From positions 1 to 39,015 of the forward strand of contig JAMCQI010000050.1 of NCBI GenBank assembly GCA_023381515.1: a stretch of DNA of 39,015 bases, written 5' to 3'. Position 1 is the first letter of the stretch. Every line of letters starts with the position of its first letter. The translations under genes were made by a program, and so were the position numbers. Positions 16,989 to 32,955 of the stretch are shown piece by piece. Under the pieces are notes generated by a model. That model did no database searches. It was given only the letters and a program-made list of their open reading frames with translations, and was not told the origin of the DNA. The DNA comes from Chloroflexota bacterium. GTDB lineage: Bacteria; Chloroflexota; Anaerolineae; UBA4142.

Positions 16989-18752
16989 ATGTGGTTCATT
17001 CGGATCAACATGTCCGACCGGACCTACCGCGTCGAGCCGGCCCCCGAGACCTACAAGAATTTCGGCGGCCGCGGCATGACCTCCTCGGTCGTCGCCGATG
17101 AAGTTCCTCCCCTTTCTCACCCCCTCGGCCCTAACAACAAGCTCGTCTTTAGTCCGGGAATTGTCACCGGCACCGCGGCCCCCACTTCGGCCCGCGTCTC
17201 TGTCGGCGGCAAGTCTCCGCTGACGGGAGGCATCAAGGAAGCCAACGCCGGGACCTCCTGGGCGCGTGACCTCGCCGTCATGCAGGTCAAGGCATTGGTC
17301 GTCGAGGGCCAACCGAAAGATCAATCCAAATCCTGGGGCGTCAAGTTGACTTGGGATGCCGCGGCCGGCAAACCCAAGATCGAGTTCTTCGACGCGACCC
17401 AGTTCGAAGACCAGGACCTGTATCAAGTCTTCCCGCAGGTCTACAAGCAGTTTGGAGACCAAATCTCGATCGCCGGATATGGTAACGCCGGCCAGCGCAA
17501 CTATGCTAATTCGGGCGTTGTGTTCAACGACGAGTCGAAACGCCCCAGCCGCTATGCCGGCCGTGGCGGTCTGGGCGCCGTCATGGGCAGCAAGCGGCTC
17601 AAATTCATACTGATCGACGACAAGGGCGCGCCCGGAGTCCCGGTTGCCGACAAGGCCTTGTTCGAGCAAGGTCGGAAAAAGATGACGGACGCCTTGATGA
17701 AGCACGACATCACCAAGCCCAAGGGCGCCCTGAACAGCTACGGGACTGCCGTTCTCATCAACATCATGAACGAAGCTGGCGGTCTCCCGACCCGCAATTT
17801 CACAGCCGGCCGCTTTGAAGGCGCCGCCAAGATCGCGGGCGAGGCCATCTTCGAGGGGAACAAGCAGCGCTTGGGCAAGGAACTTTATAACCACGCTTGC
17901 AGCCCGGGCTGCATCATCCAGTGCTCCAACACCTGGCATGCCGCGGATGGCAAAGAGATTGCCTCCTGCGTCGAGTACGAATCGGATTGGGCTCTCGGGG
18001 CGAACTGCGGCATTGACAACCTGGACGATATCGCCGAGATGGTCAGGCTGTGCAATGCCTATGGCCTGGACACGATCGAAGCCGGCGCCACCATCGCCGT
18101 CGCCATGCAGGCCGGCGTCATTCCGTTTGGCGATAGCAAGGGCGCGATCAATCTGCTTCACGAAATGGGCAAAGGCACGCCGATGGGTCGTATCCTCGGC
18201 AGCGGCACCGCTACCGCCGGCAAGGTCCTGGGCGTGACCCACGTTCCGACCGTCAAGGGTCAGGCGATGCCTGCTTACGAGCCGCGCGCCGTCAAGGGCA
18301 TCGGCATCACCTATGCCACGACGACGATGGGTGCAGACCACACCGCCGGCTATACCATCGCACCCGAAATCCTCGGCGTCAGCGGCAAGCAAGACCCGCT
18401 CTCTCCGGAAGGCAAAGCCGCCCTGAGCCGCGCATTCCAGGCAACGACCGCGTTTGTCGACAGCAGTGGGCACTGTCTCTTCATCGCGTTCGCCATCCTC
18501 GACATCGCCAGCGGCTTTGAAGGCATGGTGGAAGAGGCGAATGGTGTCTTGGGCACCCACTGGAGCAACGACGACGTCGTCGCGCTCGGCGCCTCCATTC
18601 TCAAGAAAGAGCGCGCGTTTAACGAAGCGGCCGGTATCGGCAAGGCCGCCGATCGCGTTCCCGAATTCATGAAGACCGAACCGCTGCCTCCTCACAACCA
18701 GGTCTTTGATGTGCCCGACAGCGCTCTTGACTCTGTATTCGGCGAACTCTAG
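16989..18752 (+). CDS. aor: Aldehyde ferredoxin oxidoreductase, tungsten-type
   Basis: A 587-residue enzyme of the AOR family, which oxidises aldehydes to acids (or runs in reverse) with ferredoxin and a bis-pyranopterin tungsten, rarely molybdenum, cofactor. The N-terminal domain has NFGGRGMTSSVV (about 20-31), GPNNKLVFSPGIVTGT (about 48-63) and KSPLTGGIKEANAGTSWA (about 76-93). The [4Fe-4S] ligands are C304, C308 and C312 (CSPGCIIQCSN, a CX3CX3C spacing) and C496 (DSSGHCLF). The ATG has AAAAGGAG upstream. It follows a consensus promoter and a structured leader, and ends before a strong terminator. Maturase, MoaD-like, MoaA and ModBC genes follow, so cofactor supply is encoded next door. The substrate is not evident; acetaldehyde or other short aldehydes are plausible. 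Confidence 0.9.
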   Translation: MWFIRINMSDRTYRVEPAPETYKNFGGRGMTSSVVADEVPPLSHPLGPNNKLVFSPGIVTGTAAPTSARVSVGGKSPLTGGIKEANAGTSWARDLAVMQVKALVVEGQPKDQSKSWGVKLTWDAAAGKPKIEFFDATQFEDQDLYQVFPQVYKQFGDQISIAGYGNAGQRNYANSGVVFNDESKRPSRYAGRGGLGAVMGSKRLKFILIDDKGAPGVPVADKALFEQGRKKMTDALMKHDITKPKGALNSYGTAVLINIMNEAGGLPTRNFTAGRFEGAAKIAGEAIFEGNKQRLGKELYNHACSPGCIIQCSNTWHAADGKEIASCVEYESDWALGANCGIDNLDDIAEMVRLCNAYGLDTIEAGATIAVAMQAGVIPFGDSKGAINLLHEMGKGTPMGRILGSGTATAGKVLGVTHVPTVKGQAMPAYEPRAVKGIGITYATTTMGADHTAGYTIAPEILGVSGKQDPLSPEGKAALSRAFQATTAFVDSSGHCLFIAFAILDIASGFEGMVEEANGVLGTHWSNDDVVALGASILKKERAFNEAAGIGKAADRVPEFMKTEPLPPHNQVFDVPDSALDSVFGEL

Positions 18753-18763
18753 TTTGCAGCAGG

Positions 18764-18798
18764 AAACGGGCAGGGCAGACATGGCCCTGCCCGTTTTT
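18764..18798 (+). terminator. Strong intrinsic terminator after AOR
   Basis: AAACGGGCAGGGC (18764-18776) and GCCCTGCCCGTTT (18784-18796) make a perfect 13-bp stem with a 7-nt loop, and T's run to 18798. It starts 11 nt after the AOR stop. It should separate most AOR mRNA from the maturase gene. A second small hairpin, GGGC/GCCC around GCTC, follows at 18799-18810. Confidence 0.85.
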
Positions 18799-18826
18799 GG
18801 GCGCTCGCCCGAGTACCATACCTTGT

Positions 18827-18858
18827 GTCGCTCCCCGCGTGGGTGCGTGAATTGAAAC
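18827..18858 (+). CRISPR. Solitary type I-C-like CRISPR repeat abutting a start codon
   Basis: A 32-nt sequence beginning GTCGCTCCCCGCG and ending GTGAATTGAAAC. It has the size, the palindromic core (CGCTCCC / GGGTGCG, one T:T mismatch where GGGAGCG would pair fully) and the ATTGAAAC 3' end of type I-C repeats. Read on the minus strand it gives the peptides THPRGER and IHAPTRGAT, familiar from memory as mistranslated repeats of this class. Only one copy exists here and no cas gene is near, so it is not an array. It ends 4 nt before the ATG of the radical SAM maturase and lies in the only space where that gene's own promoter could be. Confidence 0.75.
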
Positions 18859-18862
18859 AAGA

Positions 18863-20050
18863 ATGCCCAAGATCACGACGGACGACCAGGGCAGGCTGGT
18901 TCTGCCCGAGGATTTCCTTCAGCGGAGGCGACTCGATCGCAATCAAGAGTACTGGCTGGACGAGCGTGAAGGCGAACTGATCCTCCGCCCGCGTCTCCCC
19001 GACGCTCGCAAGATATACATCGAGCCCACGACCGGCTGCAATCTCCATTGCCGTACGTGCATTCGGAATGTCTGGGGCGATCCCGAAGCCAAGATGTCGA
19101 TGCACTCCTTCCGGCGAATCGTGGACAGCCTGGACGGCTTGCCCCATCTGAATCGCGTGATTTTCACTGGCTTTGGCGAACCACTCTCCCACCCTGATAT
19201 CCTCGACATGATCGAAGCGGTCCGTCAGCGCGATCTCGCCGTGACCGTTGGATCCAACGGTTTGATGCTCAAGGCGGACACGGCACGCGCGCTGGTCAAG
19301 CTCGGCGTGGACCGTCTCGTGATCTCGGTGGACGGAGTCAGACCCGAGACTTATGCGGGGGTGCGCGGCGCGATGCTGTCTCACGTGTTGGACAACATCC
19401 GCTACCTGAATGAAGCGAAACGGCAACTCGGTTCACTCTTCCCCGCTCTGGGAATCGAATTTGTCGCCTTGAAAAGCAATGTGGCCGAGCTGGCCGAGCT
19501 GACCGGCCTGGCCTCGCGACTGAACGCATCGCGCGTCCTCGTGAGCAACGTTCTTCCCTACTCCGAAGACATGCGCGACGAAATGCTCTACGGTTACGAG
19601 CCGCGCCCTCCTTTCAAAGCGGGCGGGTGGCCGGTGAGAGCGGATGCCTGGGTGATGTGGGGCACGTTGGAGCTTCCTCGGATGCATTGGGGCGCGGAGA
19701 GACGCTGCCGGTTCGTGCAGGACAGATCCATCGTCGTCGGCTGGGACGGCGGCGTGGCCCCATGCTACGCACTGTCGCACAACTATAGCTACTTTGCAAT
19801 CGACGGCCGCAAGAAGCAGGTGAATCGCTATCTCTTGGGGAATGTGAACCAACAATCCCTCGCAGAGATATGGATGTCGGAAGATTACGAATGCTTCCGT
19901 GGTGAGGTCCGCAGTTTTCATTTTCCTTCTTGCCCCAACTGCGACCTGCGTGAAACCTGCGATCTCAGAGAGCGCAACGAAGCGTGTTGGGGTTGGAATC
20001 CTTCTTGCGCCGATTGCCTCTGGGCGCAGGATATAGTCCGATGCCCTTGA
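18863..20050 (+). CDS. Radical SAM maturase of tungsten oxidoreductase, with AbrB-like N-terminus
   Basis: A 395-residue protein resembling the tungsten-cofactor oxidoreductase radical SAM maturases found beside AOR genes. Residues 1-48 look like a SpoVT/AbrB swapped-hairpin domain (ITTDDQGRLVLPEDFLQRRR ... EGELILRPR). The radical SAM core starts with CNLHCRTC (C59, C63, C66), then FTGFGEPLSHPD (about 102-113) and a VISVDG strand (about 153-158). The C-terminal cysteine-rich part (CPNCDLRETCDLRERNEACW ... CADCLWAQDIVRC) resembles a SPASM-type auxiliary cluster region, with an earlier cysteine in CRFVQD. It probably matures AOR, but the modification is unknown. The ATG follows a lone CRISPR-type repeat by 4 nt and has no Shine-Dalgarno sequence. 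It is followed after 10 nt by the first MoaD-like gene. Confidence 0.8.
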   Translation: MPKITTDDQGRLVLPEDFLQRRRLDRNQEYWLDEREGELILRPRLPDARKIYIEPTTGCNLHCRTCIRNVWGDPEAKMSMHSFRRIVDSLDGLPHLNRVIFTGFGEPLSHPDILDMIEAVRQRDLAVTVGSNGLMLKADTARALVKLGVDRLVISVDGVRPETYAGVRGAMLSHVLDNIRYLNEAKRQLGSLFPALGIEFVALKSNVAELAELTGLASRLNASRVLVSNVLPYSEDMRDEMLYGYEPRPPFKAGGWPVRADAWVMWGTLELPRMHWGAERRCRFVQDRSIVVGWDGGVAPCYALSHNYSYFAIDGRKKQVNRYLLGNVNQQSLAEIWMSEDYECFRGEVRSFHFPSCPNCDLRETCDLRERNEACWGWNPSCADCLWAQDIVRCP

Positions 20051-20060
20051 GTGAATTCCG

Positions 20061-20300
20061 ATGCATGTGAACGTGAAATTGTTCGCCAATCTCCTCACCC
20101 ATGTCGCGGATGCGAAAGTGGGAGTGCCCTTTCCGGTCGATTTGCCGGATGGCGCCACCGTAGGCGACCTGATCAGACTGCTCAAACTACCGGCGGACCA
20201 AATCAAGGTGACCTTTGTCAACGGCCGCTCCCGCTCAGACGACTGGCGACTGGAGAGTGGAGACGAGATAGGTATTTTCCCGCCAATCGGGGGAGGATAA
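20061..20300 (+). CDS. MoaD/ThiS-family sulfur carrier protein
   Basis: A 79-residue ubiquitin-fold protein. It begins MHVNVKLFANLL, has the family core LPDGATVGDLIRLLKLP and VTFVNGRSR, and ends DEIGIFPPIGGG. The terminal Gly-Gly is the residue pair that is adenylated and thiocarboxylated in MoaD, so it can act as a sulfur donor, most likely for molybdopterin dithiolene formation. No MoaE or MoeB partner is encoded in the window. It starts 10 nt after the maturase and its stop (TAA, 20298-20300) abuts the next start, so translation is probably coupled. Confidence 0.85.
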   Translation: MHVNVKLFANLLTHVADAKVGVPFPVDLPDGATVGDLIRLLKLPADQIKVTFVNGRSRSDDWRLESGDEIGIFPPIGGG

Positions 20301-20301
20301 A

Positions 20302-20673
20302 TTGAGCGACATTGTTGTCGATACCTGGTTGTATGGCGAGTTAGCGCGATATGGAGGCCAGGCGGGGCAGGTGGGTTATGGGAACGTACAGATTCATCTC
20401 AAAGCGGGCGCCACACTGGCCGACTTGTTAGCAAACCTTAGCATGCCAACAGAGGTTCGTGGCATAACTTTTATCAACGGACAGTTGAGCGCCATGCCTG
20501 GTCTGCAGCCAGACCTCGTTCACGTTCTGCATGACCTCGACCGGGTGGCATTCTTCGATCCTCACAGCATGTGGCCTTTCCAGTATCGTCACGGCGTCGC
20601 CATGGTGGGCGAAATGGCCGACGCCATGGTGGCGAGCAAAGACCAGGGCCTGCATCACACTTACAACAAATAG
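20302..20673 (+). CDS. MoaD/ThiS-like protein without terminal Gly-Gly, with C-terminal extension
   Basis: A 123-residue protein with a TTG start preceded by GGGGGAGG. Residues about 5-88 follow the MoaD/ThiS ubiquitin fold (VDTWLYGELARYGG, LKAGATLADLLANLSMP, ITFINGQLSA, DLDRVAFFDP). Where a carrier would end PPxxGG, this one continues HSMWPFQYRHGVAMVGEM and about 25 further residues. It therefore cannot be activated in the usual way. The aromatic/basic tail looks conserved-functional rather than random, but I know no function for it. It overlaps the regulatory region of the preceding gene and lies in the AOR cluster, so it may bind the enzyme, the maturase or the cofactor. Confidence 0.7.
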   Translation: MSDIVVDTWLYGELARYGGQAGQVGYGNVQIHLKAGATLADLLANLSMPTEVRGITFINGQLSAMPGLQPDLVHVLHDLDRVAFFDPHSMWPFQYRHGVAMVGEMADAMVASKDQGLHHTYNK

Positions 20674-20757: not shown

Positions 20758-21735
20758 ATGCGCGATTCTTTCGGGCGTGAAATTCATTATTTGCGTATCT
20801 CTCTGACCGACCGCTGCAATCTCCGCTGCATCTATTGCATGCCGGAGCAGGGACAGACTTTCCTTGCGCAAGCACCGCGCATGACCGACGACGAACTCGT
20901 GCGGATCGTTTCTCTGACCGCACGTCTCGGTTTCAACCGCATTCGCCTCACGGGCGGCGAGCCCACCGTACGTCCCAATCTCACCCTTCTTATTGAGAGA
21001 ATCAATCAGATTTCCGGTATCCGGGAAATTGCGATGACGACGAACGGGATGCAGCTGGAAAAGATGGCCGAGCCGTTGGCGCGTGCGGGGCTGAAACGCG
21101 TGAACGTCAGTCTGGACTCGCTCGATTCTGAGCAGTTCGCACTGATGACGCGCTTTGGCAAACTCGATGCCGTGTGGCGCGGCATTTTGGCCGCCGAAAA
21201 CGCCGGCATGCAGCCGATCAAGCTGAATGCCGTCGTCGTCCGCGGCTACAACGAGAACGCGATCGCCGACCTGGCGCGGCTGACGCTCGATCACCCCTGG
21301 CAGATGCGTTTCATCGAAGTCATGCCGCTCGGTTCCATCGCGGACTTTCAAATGGACTCGCTCGTTCCGGTCGCCGAAATGAAAGAGCGGATCGAGTCCG
21401 CACTCGGTCCGCTTGAACCGCTCGAATGGAGCGGCCATACGCCTCATCGCCCTTACCGTTTGGCGGGTGCCGTTGGCACCCTGGGCTTTATCAGTTCGGT
21501 GAGCGACCCCTTTTGCGCCGGATGCAACCGGATCCGCATGACGGCCGACGGCCACATCCGCCTATGCCTCCTCAGGGACGATGAGGTCGATGTTCTCTCC
21601 CCCTTGCGCCGGGGAGCCGACGACGAGGAACTCCTCGAGCTGATGCAGGCCAGCATATTCAAAAAGCCGTGGGGCCACGGCCTCTCGGAAAAGAGTTGGC
21701 CGCAGACGAGTGACATGTCAGAGATCGGCGGTTAG
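20758..21735 (+). CDS. moaA: GTP 3',8-cyclase MoaA
   Basis: A 325-residue radical SAM enzyme for the first step of molybdopterin synthesis, turning GTP into 3',8-cyclo-7,8-dihydro-GTP. The radical SAM cluster motif is CNLRCIYCMPEQG (from about residue 20). RLTGGEPTVRPNL (about 62-74), TTNGMQL and NVSLDSLD follow in the expected order. The C-terminal second [4Fe-4S] site is CAGCNRIRMTADGHIRLCL (about 257-275). The protein ends EIGG; the conserved C-terminal Gly-Gly of MoaA is present. Length is normal. AAGGAC lies before the ATG. It is 84 nt after the MoaD-like gene. A TATAAC at 20723-20728 could be a -10 box, but I see no good -35. MoaC and MoaE are not in the window. Confidence 0.93.
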   Translation: MRDSFGREIHYLRISLTDRCNLRCIYCMPEQGQTFLAQAPRMTDDELVRIVSLTARLGFNRIRLTGGEPTVRPNLTLLIERINQISGIREIAMTTNGMQLEKMAEPLARAGLKRVNVSLDSLDSEQFALMTRFGKLDAVWRGILAAENAGMQPIKLNAVVVRGYNENAIADLARLTLDHPWQMRFIEVMPLGSIADFQMDSLVPVAEMKERIESALGPLEPLEWSGHTPHRPYRLAGAVGTLGFISSVSDPFCAGCNRIRMTADGHIRLCLLRDDEVDVLSPLRRGADDEELLELMQASIFKKPWGHGLSEKSWPQTSDMSEIGG

Positions 21736-28419: not shown

Positions 28420-31400
28420 ATGCTCAAGAATCTGTATACCAAGATTACCGGCGACCCCAACGAGAAAGAGATCAAGCGTCTCATGCCGGTGGTCGAGGAA
28501 ATCAATCAGCTCGAACCCGAATTTCAAAAACTGACGGACGCGGAACTGCGCGCCAAGACGGATGAATTCAAAAAGCATTTGAACGACGCACTCGCCGCGC
28601 CCCGCCAAGCTGTCGGCGACGCTCGTGAGCAGTTCAATACCGCGGCAGATGCCGAAGACCGGCGGATGCTTGAAGAACACCTGAAGCAAGTTCAGCAAGC
28701 CTTGACCGAGGCGCAGCGCGCGGCCCTGGACGACATCCTCCCCGAGGCTTTTGCGGCCGTGCGCGAGGCCAGCGTTCGCACGATTGGCCTCCGGCACTTT
28801 GACGTCCAGCTCATCGGCGGCATGGTCCTGCACTCGGGCAAAGTCGCCGAGATGAAAACCGGCGAAGGCAAAACCCTGGTCGCCACCCTCCCGCTGTACT
28901 TGAACTCCCTTCTTGGTCAAGGCGCTCACCTGGTCACCGTCAACGATTACCTGGCCCGTCGCGATGCCCAGTGGATGGGACCGATTTACCACGCCCTTGG
29001 CCAAAGCGTCGGTATCCTTCAGCAGGGCGAGAAGAACGGCCTGGTGTTTGACCCGAGCGCCAAGGGCTCGACCCCGGAGACGGATTTTCTTCGCAAGGCC
29101 GATCGGCATGAGGCTTATCTGGCCGATATCACTTACGGCACCAACAACGAATTCGGTTTTGATTATTTGCGAGATAATATGGCCTGGCGCCTCGAGGACC
29201 GCGTCCAGAGCCAACTTTATTATGCGATCGTCGACGAGGTGGACAACATCCTCATCGACGAGGCGCGCACCCCCCTCATCATCTCCGGCCCAGCAGGAGA
29301 AGCATCCGAGGAATATTACCGGCTCGCCGAACTCGTTCGCAAGCTGAATCCGGACGACTATACGATCGACCAGCGCACGCGCTCGATCACCCTGACAGAA
29401 GCGGGGTACGACCGTGTTGAGGCGCTCCTTGGAACGCCGCTCTATAATGTGGAACGGCCGGAAGAGTCGGACCCACAGCAAGCCAAAGTGATGCACCACC
29501 TTGAAGCGGCCATGAAGGCCCAGTACCTCTTCCAACGCGACAAGGACTATATCATCCGCAAGGGCCAGGTCATCATCGTGGATGAGTTCACGGGGCGCTT
29601 GATGCCGGGACGGCGGTGGTCGGATGGCCTTCACCAGGCGGTAGAGGCGAAAGAGCGAGTACCAATCCAGCAAGAGTCCGTGACCTACGCAACGGTCACG
29701 CTGCAGAACTATTTCCGCCTCTATCGGCGGCTCGCAGGCATGACAGGCACGGCCAAGACCGAGGAGGATGAGTTCCAAAAGGTCTACAACCTGGACGTGA
29801 TCGTCATCCCGACTCACAAACCCATGATCCGGGCCGACCAGCCCGACCTGGTCTACCGCAGCGAGGAAGCCAAGTGGCGTGCGGTCACTCTCGAAATCCT
29901 CAGCCTTTACGCCAAAGGCCAGCCCACTCTCGTGGGCACCACTTCGGTGGAACTGTCGGAACACCTCAGCGATCGTCTCGCGGCATCCAAGCTGCAGCTG
30001 CTGGCACGAGTGCGGCTCCTCGGAAACGCCATCGAAAACAGCAAAGACCTCTCCGACAAACAGCGGACGGCTCTCAAGCTCATCCTCTCACGCGATCTCG
30101 CCGAAGAGCCTGAGCAGTATGAAGAGGCGCTCTCTGCGCGTTTGTTCCACGAATTTGATTTGCGCGGGGTCAGCGAAGCTTCGCGCAAGCTCCGCTTGCC
30201 CGTGCGCGACCTCATTCGCATCAAGGCTCGTCTGGGCGGCCGGGGCAAAGAAACCTCGAACGTCGCCAAGCAATACAATCTCGGCGACAAAGAGATCCGC
30301 GAGCTGGGCAATTTGAGCGAGCGCGATTTGAAATTCGTCTCCCGATTGGAAGAGCGGCAGCTCCGCCTCGACAACATCGACGCGCTGGCCGCAGAGATTA
30401 GCGAGCATCCGGACGATTTGGCAAAGATTGCGCCCCGCTTCAACCTGCCAGTCGAAACGGTCATGGACATTTATCAGGACTTGCGTCTCTCCCGCCCGGA
30501 AATGATGGAAATCAATCGTGCCTTGATCGAGAACCTCGGCCAGGTGGATACCGTAGCGCACGAGTATCGTGCCCGCGCCGCGGCGATGGATGCGATTCTC
30601 AAACGGCTTTACCTTCGCGAAGAGGACGTTGTCCGATTGGCGAAAAAAGCGGGCGTGGAGGTCGACCCCTTCGCGACCGAGAATCTCGGCTATCTCTCCG
30701 AGAGCTATGGGGTCGAGGATCCCGCTCGTCTTGAGCAAATCCTGCGCGAAGGCGTCCCCCACTCCGTCTTGAACGCCAAAGAGCACGAAAAGGAGGCGGG
30801 GATAATCGCCCGCGCAGGCGAGCCGAACTCGATCACCGTCGCGACGAACATGGCAGGCCGTGGGGTCGATATCAAGCTGGGCGGCGAATTGCCAGAGGAC
30901 ACGCTCAACGAAATAGGGCGTGTTTTGCACCGGGCCGGCATTGATCCGTACAATCTGACGTTCGACCAAATCGCCGAGGCCCTTACCAAGATTCCGCCGG
31001 AAGAGTACTTCCTTTACGCCGAGCATGTGGAGCGTTTCCAGAAATACATGCACGATCGCGAGCGCGTGCGCGAGCTGGGAGGACTGCGCATCGTCGGCAC
31101 AGAGCGTCACGAGGCGCGGCGTATTGACAACCAGTTGCGCGGCCGCTCTGGACGTCAGGGCGACCCCGGCTCCTCCCGTTTCTATGTTTCGCTCGAAGAT
31201 GAAATCATGAACCGCATGGGCGGCAAGGGTCTGGTCGATCGCGTCTGGATCGAGGATATTCCGATTGAACATGACTGGGTCACTCGCGCCATAGAGCAAG
31301 CCCAAGTCAAAATGGAGTCCTACAACTTTGACATCCGCAAGCACTTGCTCGAATACGACGATGTCCTGAATAAGCAGAGGGAGATCATTTACGGACAGCG

Positions 31401-32955
31401 GTCTCGGATTCTTACCAAGGCCGATTTGCGGGAAGACCTGCGAAGTTGGTTGGAAGAGGAAATTGCTCGACTCGTTTCCGAGGACCTGAAATCCGATCAC
31501 GGCGATTCGGACCACGCCGAGTCCCGCTTGCTGTTTCACCTGGATTCGCTCTTACCCGGCTTTTTCCTGACCGAGAACGAAATCTGGCCGCCGCTCTCCG
31601 TGGAGTTGGTTCAGCGCGATCTTGTTTTCGCCGAGGACGACGCGCTCGATGCCATCTGCCGTCGCATCCTCGACGCCGCCCGCCGCGGCATGGAGCTGCA
31701 TCGCGACTATATTGCCCAGTCCGTCGTCCCCGAGGCCATTAATCAGTTCGAGCAGCAATATCAGACCACTTGGAACGACCTCGAGGACGTGGCGAAGAAT
31801 ACGTTCTCCACAACCCGGCACGAGGCCGAAGAGCAGAACCAACACCTTGATACCGGGGCCCTCGCCATGACGATCGGGCAGGCCGTCGGAATGCCCATCA
31901 GCCTGAATGCCGAGCGCGGCGCAGAGGTGGGCGAGCGCGAGATTGTAGATGCTGTCCGGCAAGCCTATGATGCACGTGTCGCCGAACAGGTCTTGAGACG
32001 CGTCGAAAAACGCGTCGGCATGAATCTAGACGTGCACCGGCCCACCGACGCGGGACTGAGCTTCGACGAACTGCGTAACGCGCTCGTCCAAGCCGTCAAC
32101 TCGACGTATAACCAGCAAGCCGACAAGTATTTAGCAGACATCGAACGCGAGTTGGCCGAACGGATCAAGAGCATCGACGATGTTCGCGGAATGCATCTTT
32201 CGAGCCTCCTCTTTGCGATCAGCCATACTCGCCATTCCGCGTTCGATCAACGCACGCATCGGCGCTTTGATCTCATGGTCCCCCGTTTTCCATGGGTGCA
32301 TTTGGCCGCCGACAAGATTCGCGGGTTGGACCAGCCCGGTCTGCGAGAGGAAATCCTCGCGTACTGGACGCGCTCACTCGGCCAGCTTGAGGTCGTGCGT
32401 GGCGGCACCCAGACCTTCAACGATCTCCTGCGCGAGCTGATGCTCAGCGTCGTCACGAACTTGTGGGTAGACTATCTTACAGAAATTGAAGCGCTGCGCG
32501 AAGGCATCGGCTTACAGGCGTTCGGTCAGCGCGATCCGCTCGTCGAGTACAAGCGCAGGGCGTATGAGATGTTCCAAGACCTCTACTCCCGCATCCGCTC
32601 CCAGGTCGTAACCTACATCTTCACGTATCAATACCGTGGCTTGGCCAAGCTGGAAGACGAAGCGCGAGACCGCGCTTCCCGTCAGGCGGTTGAGGCTCCC
32701 CGAAAGGAGCCGCCAGCCGTTGCGGCCCAGACGGCAGCCCCTCAGCCGGCGAAGGCAGCGCCCCAATCCCCCAAAGCGACCAAGGCTCCTGCACCGGCTC
32801 GCACGCCTATAGGCTCTTCCGGAGTGGCAAAGCTTGGGCGCAACGATCCATGCTGGTGCGGCAGTGGCCGAAAATACAAAAACTGCCATATGGCAAGCGA
32901 TACCGGCCAAACGGCACCGGCCCGTGCGAGCGGCAATGGTAAGGGTCGCCGGTAG
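28420..32955 (+). CDS. secA: Preprotein translocase ATPase SecA, greatly enlarged
   Basis: The motor ATPase that drives proteins through SecYEG. At 1511 residues it is about 500-650 longer than most SecA proteins. Walker A is MKTGEGKT (145-152); the DEAD-type motif is VDEVDNILIDEARTPLIISG (271-290). NBD2 starts normally (GQPTLVGTTSVELSEHLSDRL), then from about 525 to 778 comes an all-helical insert of about 250 residues before SVLNAKEHEKEA (782 on). ATNMAGRGVDIKLGG and GTERHEARRIDNQLRGRSGR then follow, separated by a further insert of about 60. The helical scaffold is also stretched: EYDDVLNKQRE (978) is about 380 residues from LREGIGLQAFGQRDPLVEYK (1359), roughly 200 more than usual. The C-terminus keeps the zinc-binding SEC-C motif DPCWCGSGRKYKNCH (C1478, C1480, C1489, H1490) after a Pro/Ala linker. 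All catalytic motifs are intact, so it is expected to work. Confidence 0.95.
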   Translation: MLKNLYTKITGDPNEKEIKRLMPVVEEINQLEPEFQKLTDAELRAKTDEFKKHLNDALAAPRQAVGDAREQFNTAADAEDRRMLEEHLKQVQQALTEAQRAALDDILPEAFAAVREASVRTIGLRHFDVQLIGGMVLHSGKVAEMKTGEGKTLVATLPLYLNSLLGQGAHLVTVNDYLARRDAQWMGPIYHALGQSVGILQQGEKNGLVFDPSAKGSTPETDFLRKADRHEAYLADITYGTNNEFGFDYLRDNMAWRLEDRVQSQLYYAIVDEVDNILIDEARTPLIISGPAGEASEEYYRLAELVRKLNPDDYTIDQRTRSITLTEAGYDRVEALLGTPLYNVERPEESDPQQAKVMHHLEAAMKAQYLFQRDKDYIIRKGQVIIVDEFTGRLMPGRRWSDGLHQAVEAKERVPIQQESVTYATVTLQNYFRLYRRLAGMTGTAKTEEDEFQKVYNLDVIVIPTHKPMIRADQPDLVYRSEEAKWRAVTLEILSLYAKGQPTLVGTTSVELSEHLSDRLAASKLQLLARVRLLGNAIENSKDLSDKQRTALKLILSRDLAEEPEQYEEALSARLFHEFDLRGVSEASRKLRLPVRDLIRIKARLGGRGKETSNVAKQYNLGDKEIRELGNLSERDLKFVSRLEERQLRLDNIDALAAEISEHPDDLAKIAPRFNLPVETVMDIYQDLRLSRPEMMEINRALIENLGQVDTVAHEYRARAAAMDAILKRLYLREEDVVRLAKKAGVEVDPFATENLGYLSESYGVEDPARLEQILREGVPHSVLNAKEHEKEAGIIARAGEPNSITVATNMAGRGVDIKLGGELPEDTLNEIGRVLHRAGIDPYNLTFDQIAEALTKIPPEEYFLYAEHVERFQKYMHDRERVRELGGLRIVGTERHEARRIDNQLRGRSGRQGDPGSSRFYVSLEDEIMNRMGGKGLVDRVWIEDIPIEHDWVTRAIEQAQVKMESYNFDIRKHLLEYDDVLNKQREIIYGQRSRILTKADLREDLRSWLEEEIARLVSEDLKSDHGDSDHAESRLLFHLDSLLPGFFLTENEIWPPLSVELVQRDLVFAEDDALDAICRRILDAARRGMELHRDYIAQSVVPEAINQFEQQYQTTWNDLEDVAKNTFSTTRHEAEEQNQHLDTGALAMTIGQAVGMPISLNAERGAEVGEREIVDAVRQAYDARVAEQVLRRVEKRVGMNLDVHRPTDAGLSFDELRNALVQAVNSTYNQQADKYLADIERELAERIKSIDDVRGMHLSSLLFAISHTRHSAFDQRTHRRFDLMVPRFPWVHLAADKIRGLDQPGLREEILAYWTRSLGQLEVVRGGTQTFNDLLRELMLSVVTNLWVDYLTEIEALREGIGLQAFGQRDPLVEYKRRAYEMFQDLYSRIRSQVVTYIFTYQYRGLAKLEDEARDRASRQAVEAPRKEPPAVAAQTAAPQPAKAAPQSPKATKAPAPARTPIGSSGVAKLGRNDPCWCGSGRKYKNCHMASDTGQTAPARASGNGKGRR

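Follow-up and report, generated by a model that had tools for sequence, protein, structure and literature searches.

A solitary type I-C-like CRISPR repeat, probably a relic, in the leader of a tungsten-enzyme maturase gene of one Chloroflexi lineage

Introduction

Solitary CRISPR repeats outside arrays are an already known kind of element. Solitary repeat units (SRUs) and Racrs lie outside arrays on mobile elements, and PMC10651486 delimits SRUs by identity and coverage of 90% or more relative to a known repeat, with no second repeat within 100 nt. CreTA modules carry degenerated ectopic repeats outside arrays (PMC9458426). Among open PMC papers, we found none describing a metabolic gene with a lone repeat in its leader. 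Here we describe such a repeat in the spacer between an aldehyde:ferredoxin oxidoreductase (AOR) gene and its downstream maturase gene, within a 39,015-nt stretch of Chloroflexota DNA (hereafter the window), and compare the locus with its relatives.

Results

The 32-mer GTCGCTCCCCGCGTGGGTGCGTGAATTGAAAC lies at 18827-18858 on the plus strand; AAGA separates it from the maturase ATG at 18863, and both pattern matching and comparison with array repeats confirmed the preliminary description of a lone I-C-like repeat 4 nt before this start codon. With up to 3 mismatches allowed, the I-C pattern matched once in the window and in 0 of 100 shuffles. The 32-mer differed at 3 positions (29/32) from the main array repeat of a Peptoclostridium acidaminophilum plasmid, where 68 of the 70 pattern matches in the stretch are that main repeat and an annotated cas7c adjoins the array; of the 14 copies in a Parabacteroides distasonis plasmid array, which adjoins cas5c-cas8c-cas7c-cas4-cas1-cas2, 3/14 differed from it at 3 positions and 11/14 at 4. 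At 29/32 to repeats of arrays adjoining I-C cas genes, the sequence is of the I-C kind. For four such I-C repeats, the runner-up site in the window had 11-13 mismatches, and the lowest count in 40 surrogate windows was 9, versus 3 for the real 32-mer; a chance resemblance was rejected on the basis of these shuffles and surrogates. Judged by its sequence, the 32-mer is homologous to type I-C repeats. It stands in sense orientation relative to the maturase and keeps an intact 3' handle, ATTGAAAC. The pattern gave a single match in the window and in the nearest genome, rather than two or more regularly spaced ones, and no second repeat was found near 18827-18858. Nothing reached the gathering score in Rfam, and tblastn of five I-C Cas proteins (cas8c, cas7c, cas4, cas1 and cas2) against the window gave a best E of 0.24. 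The nearby repeat scans, tblastn and the Pfam scan described below bore out the earlier statement that neither a second repeat nor a cas gene is present.

The genes around the repeat all lie on the plus strand. The AOR gene (587 aa, 16989..18752) matches Pfam AFOR_N and AFOR_C above cut-off and is followed by a terminator-like hairpin with a T run (18764..18798), whose 13-nt arms pair perfectly (18764-18776 / 18784-18796); inverted-repeat and terminator scans upheld the suggestion of an AOR terminator 5' of the repeat. Directly 3' of the T run, sequence and predicted folds indicate a small hairpin, GGGC-GCTC-GCCC (18799..18810), and the 24 nt starting at 18799 are present in the nearest genome, G001, and absent at ≤3 mismatches in three other genomes (G012, G007 and G011). 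The gene after the repeat (395 aa, 18863..20050) encodes a tungsten cofactor oxidoreductase radical SAM maturase, with Radical_SAM and SPASM domains and a score of 425 bits against NCBIfam TIGR04317 (cut-off 380). Next come a MoaD/ThiS-like small protein (79 aa, 20061..20300; Pfam ThiS above cut-off), a 123-aa ORF (20302..20673) with no match in Pfam or NCBIfam, and a MoaA-like protein (325 aa, 20758..21735; Pfam Radical_SAM and Mob_synth_C). A Pfam scan of 24 window proteins, a subset of the ORFs, recognised no mobile-element or cas gene; those with matches belong to metabolism, transport, secretion and other ordinary chromosomal functions. A prophage or other mobile context was rejected, there being no such gene among the 24 proteins and no exact viral match for a 21-nt piece of the upstream flank. 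PADLOC matches for 8 window proteins (radical SAM proteins to viperin models, a methyltransferase to mad2, a GTPase to mad8, AbiO and Nhi) were not read as defence genes. Elsewhere in the window, a SecA-like protein of 1511 aa (28420-32955) has SecA domain matches spread far beyond the profile lengths, and a typical SecA has about 900 aa.

The nearest genome, G001, is a Chloroflexi MAG (Chloroflexi bacterium FK_Sedi_B_Bin.16, contig JAMDCU010000030.1) estimated to be 70% complete. It aligns to the window with 98.96% identity across 7,992 bases (72 mismatches) and holds an identical 32-mer at the same place, with no further copy at ≤3 mismatches. Because this separate MAG shares the sequence at the same locus, with SNPs around the repeat, an assembly artefact was considered unlikely. 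The unchanged 32-mer says little about constraint, since at 1% divergence two strains would be expected to share it most of the time. The preliminary description had proposed a genome search for arrays and cas genes: in G001, Cas5d, Csd2/Cas7c and Cas1 were looked for and none was found, nor was a TTGAAAC triple at array spacing. With about 30% of the genome lacking, the missing Cas proteins and array are suggestive only, and the absence of Cas5d is not proven. As a separate observation, 3 of the 72 mismatches fall within the 4 nt (18823-18826) directly 5' of the repeat; there, G001 reads CCTACG (18822-18827), 5/6 bases of which equal the reverse complement of the repeat's CGTGGG, while the window reads CTTGTG (2/6). 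A templated (quasi-palindrome) mutation would produce such a pattern, and in G001 folding predicts that this stretch pairs with the repeat in an alternative stem of 7 pairs.

Across the 396 genomes of the class, the 32-mer at ≤3 mismatches occurred in none except G001; the stem-constrained I-C pattern occurred in no other of 400 phylum genomes, and a scan of genome contigs for the exact 32-mer returned only the JAMDCU record. A looser I-C pattern matched 22/396 class genomes, 18 of them two or more times. The single match in G394 sits among degenerate repeats, and the G279 match and one lone G387 contig match end at contig edges 3' of an ORF, which we take to be Cas2. By pattern and neighbour test, a solitary I-C repeat was thus left in 2/396 class genomes (G001 and G205). 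Besides the window, 18 maturase loci were compared, 10 of which had a same-strand AOR upstream within the flank retrieved (G001 plus nine others: L003 and L005-L012) and 8 of which had no AOR there. The AOR-maturase gap measured 63-275 nt in 8/9 of these relatives and 919 nt in G007 (L011). This comparison of AOR-maturase spacers, which the preliminary description had named as a check, separated G001 from the rest: the genomes of all nine others (9/9) lack the 32-mer at ≤3 mismatches. Scored over the last 150 nt 5' of the maturase, a stretch that the gap exceeds in L003, L009 and L011, the nine gave best local scores of 8-11, against 28 in the window and G001, a value contributed by a viral repeat (that of L083, below) in the repeat set; shuffled sequences gave a median of 9, a 95% point of 12 and a maximum of 14. 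All 17/17 loci other than G001 scored 7-11, inside the shuffled range, and repeat traces in these relatives were rejected, as was GTTTCAAT, 27 nt 5' of the L016 start, whose score of 10 is chance-like. The next closest relative after G001 is G012, with an 85% identical maturase; its T run and ATG are 13 nt apart, versus 64 nt in the window, 32 of which are the repeat. The absence of the repeat in relatives and the short G012 leader therefore make it best read as a lineage-specific addition. The same family has an I-C-type array in G007 (GTCGCTCCTCACATGGGGAGCGTGGATTGAAAC) and an array with Csd2 in G011; G007 carries this maturase with the repeat absent 5' of it, and no Cas5d (by PF09704) or Csd2 was found in that genome. 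An AOR-maturase pair lacking the repeat is likewise present in G006 and G013, each with a match to PF09704 (Cas5d family) that is ambiguous as to CRISPR subtype, because Csd2 was not found in either.

The spacers of these relatives offered a further observation. A long hairpin is predicted in the window, in G001 and in 8/8 relatives with a 63-275-nt gap (L003, L005-L010 and L012), several with a T run, as judged fold by fold without shuffles, and L003 has an additional long inverted repeat. Such a hairpin could be an attenuator holding the maturase below the level of the enzyme.

The I-C repeat forms a seven-pair stem, which in the 32-mer is interrupted by a T6-T18 mismatch. When the 32-mer was folded alone, the six remaining pairs had a probability of 0.33-0.42; with 20, 40 or 64 nt of window flank this was 0-0.13, and in G001 it was 0, whereas array repeats folded alone reached 0.76-1.0. 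Three array copies with their flanks varied widely (first, 0.76-1.0 and 0.03-0.06; second, 0.14-0.44 and 0.51-0.66; third, 0.90-1.0), which makes in-context folding a weak and noisy control. The 32-mer alone folded no better than chance, with a z of -0.78 and 49/200 shuffles folding as well or better; the 141 nt around the spacer did fold better than shuffles (z -2.82), a stretch that includes the terminator hairpin. The stem is thus predicted to be broken in context, and neither the intact stem of a Cas5d-processed leader nor a cognate-like fold is indicated, given the mismatch and the low predicted pairing, both alone and against that noisy control. Array repeats disagree on which arm changed: an A6-T18 pair in those of the plasmids (GTCGCACCCC...GGGTGCG) would make T6 of the 5' arm the changed base, and a T6-A18 pair in those of Chloroflexi (GTCGCTCCC...GGGAGCG) would make it T18 of the 3' arm. 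Because these comparisons point to opposite arms, the earlier argument that a mutated 3' arm marks a terminal repeat found no support.

Solitary I-C repeats were also sought in viral contigs, where 127 pattern matches fell in 74 stretches (not de-duplicated); 60 had no neighbour, and 52 of these also lay clear of an edge. One of the 52, at 8764-8795 of L083 (viral contig IMGVR_UViG_3300032053_000217), is a lone I-C repeat matching the window's at 30/32, flanked on both sides by an identical 34 nt that by eye resembles part of a transposase gene. A TTC, the I-C PAM, precedes the left copy. The duplication could stem from an integrase event or from an assembly that looped through a spacer of a host array, and the case bears on metagenome surveys of solitary repeats. 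Against a background of 1/52 lone viral repeats and 5/1480 random positions, neither the window nor G001 had a flank duplication, and integrase insertion by this route was rejected. A guide role for the 34 nt 3' of the repeat was also rejected: no TTC with a perfect 8-nt seed match was found on either strand of the window, so that at this seed level no spacer-like part pairing with a PAM-adjacent promoter, as in CreTA, is seen.

Discussion

The explanation we favour, at a probability of roughly 0.7 taken as a whole, is that the repeat is a relic or ectopic copy without CRISPR function. In an ancestor of one Chloroflexi species, array decay or an ectopic copying event would have left a solitary I-C repeat in the space that separates the AOR terminator from the maturase start. 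We infer that this repeat most likely has no CRISPR-dependent function, because the stem appears lost and neither a Cas protein nor a cognate array was detected, and that it is tolerated because the spot is permissive. The preliminary description had offered such a relic as its plainer reading, and the restriction to one lineage among the genomes searched, the solitude of the repeat, the lack of a detected cas gene or array in G001 and the predicted broken stem all agree with it. Its bolder proposal, that a resident Cas5d cuts the maturase mRNA within the repeat just 5' of the ATG and so couples crRNA processing to AOR maturation, appears very improbable. The sense orientation, the handle beside the start codon and the I-C arrays or genes of the family (in G007 and G011) would suit it, but G001, at its 70% completeness, has no detected Cas5d, Cas7c or Cas1, the stem should, by prediction, barely form in the window context and not form at all in G001, and the maturase is present with no repeat 5' of it in G007, which has an I-C-type array, and in G006 and G013, which have PF09704 matches; the proposal was accordingly not supported. 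We regard as extremely unlikely the related case of an I-C system in the missing part of the genome, in which Cas5d processing or binding at the leader would set maturase translation and CRISPR activity would tune a metalloenzyme.

A role independent of Cas is also conceivable: the repeat may have been retained as part of an ordinary leader, in which its partial hairpin and A-rich 3' end would set the translation or stability of the maturase mRNA. The repeat lies within the last 36 nt 5' of the start, where G012 has a different, short leader, and the two leaders show equally weak predicted anti-Shine-Dalgarno pairing (-5.9 here, -5.6 in G012), so that the start codon may be selected through other features of the leader. 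The spacer has no promoter-like site, though, selection could not be detected with two strains of a single species, and 49/200 shuffles fold at least as well as the 32-mer alone; we therefore consider this role unlikely. Capture from a phage or plasmid as a Racr-type solitary repeat unit, a repeat-mimic RNA titrating Cas proteins, seems quite unlikely. In sequence the 32-mer falls inside the main SRU limits (90.6% identity, 32/32 coverage, 46 bits, no nearby second repeat), the 46-bit score coming from a BLAST set-up that differs from that of PMC10651486, and solitary I-C repeats do occur in many viral contigs. Yet the 24 scanned proteins nearby are ordinary chromosomal or unassigned, with no mobile-element gene to indicate carriage on a virus, prophage or plasmid, and the same locus recurs in a MAG contig; moreover, no promoter was found, the repeat matched none of the phage records, exact matches to the upstream flank were absent from viral contigs, and the stem is predicted to be broken. 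A relic thus remains the preferred reading of the repeat.

At this locus, one lineage carries a solitary I-C repeat within the 5' leader of a metabolic gene on the chromosome, a cautionary case for surveys that infer function from lone repeats. If it were functional, it would be a natural example of CRISPR RNA processing governing a metabolic gene.

Compared with known systems, the 32-mer resembles the I-C arrays of the P. distasonis and P. acidaminophilum plasmids, G007 and G011 in its 5' GTCGC, its 3' GCGTG(G/A)ATTGAAAC and a length of 32-33 nt, but differs from them in having no repeat-spacer periodicity, no nearby cas genes and an unpaired T6-T18. Like the SRUs and Racrs described in PMC10651486, it is a single intergenic repeat with no cas genes or second repeat and about 90% identity to array repeats; those surveyed there lie on phages, prophages and plasmids, and the ones tested were transcribed, whereas the 32-mer here is chromosomal, lacks a visible promoter and has a stem predicted to be broken. 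Like the ectopic repeats of CreTA, as PMC9458426 presents them, it stands outside an array and is partly degenerated; CreA consists of one or two repeats with a spacer-like part guiding Cascade to the toxin promoter, whereas here the repeat is followed by the maturase coding region.
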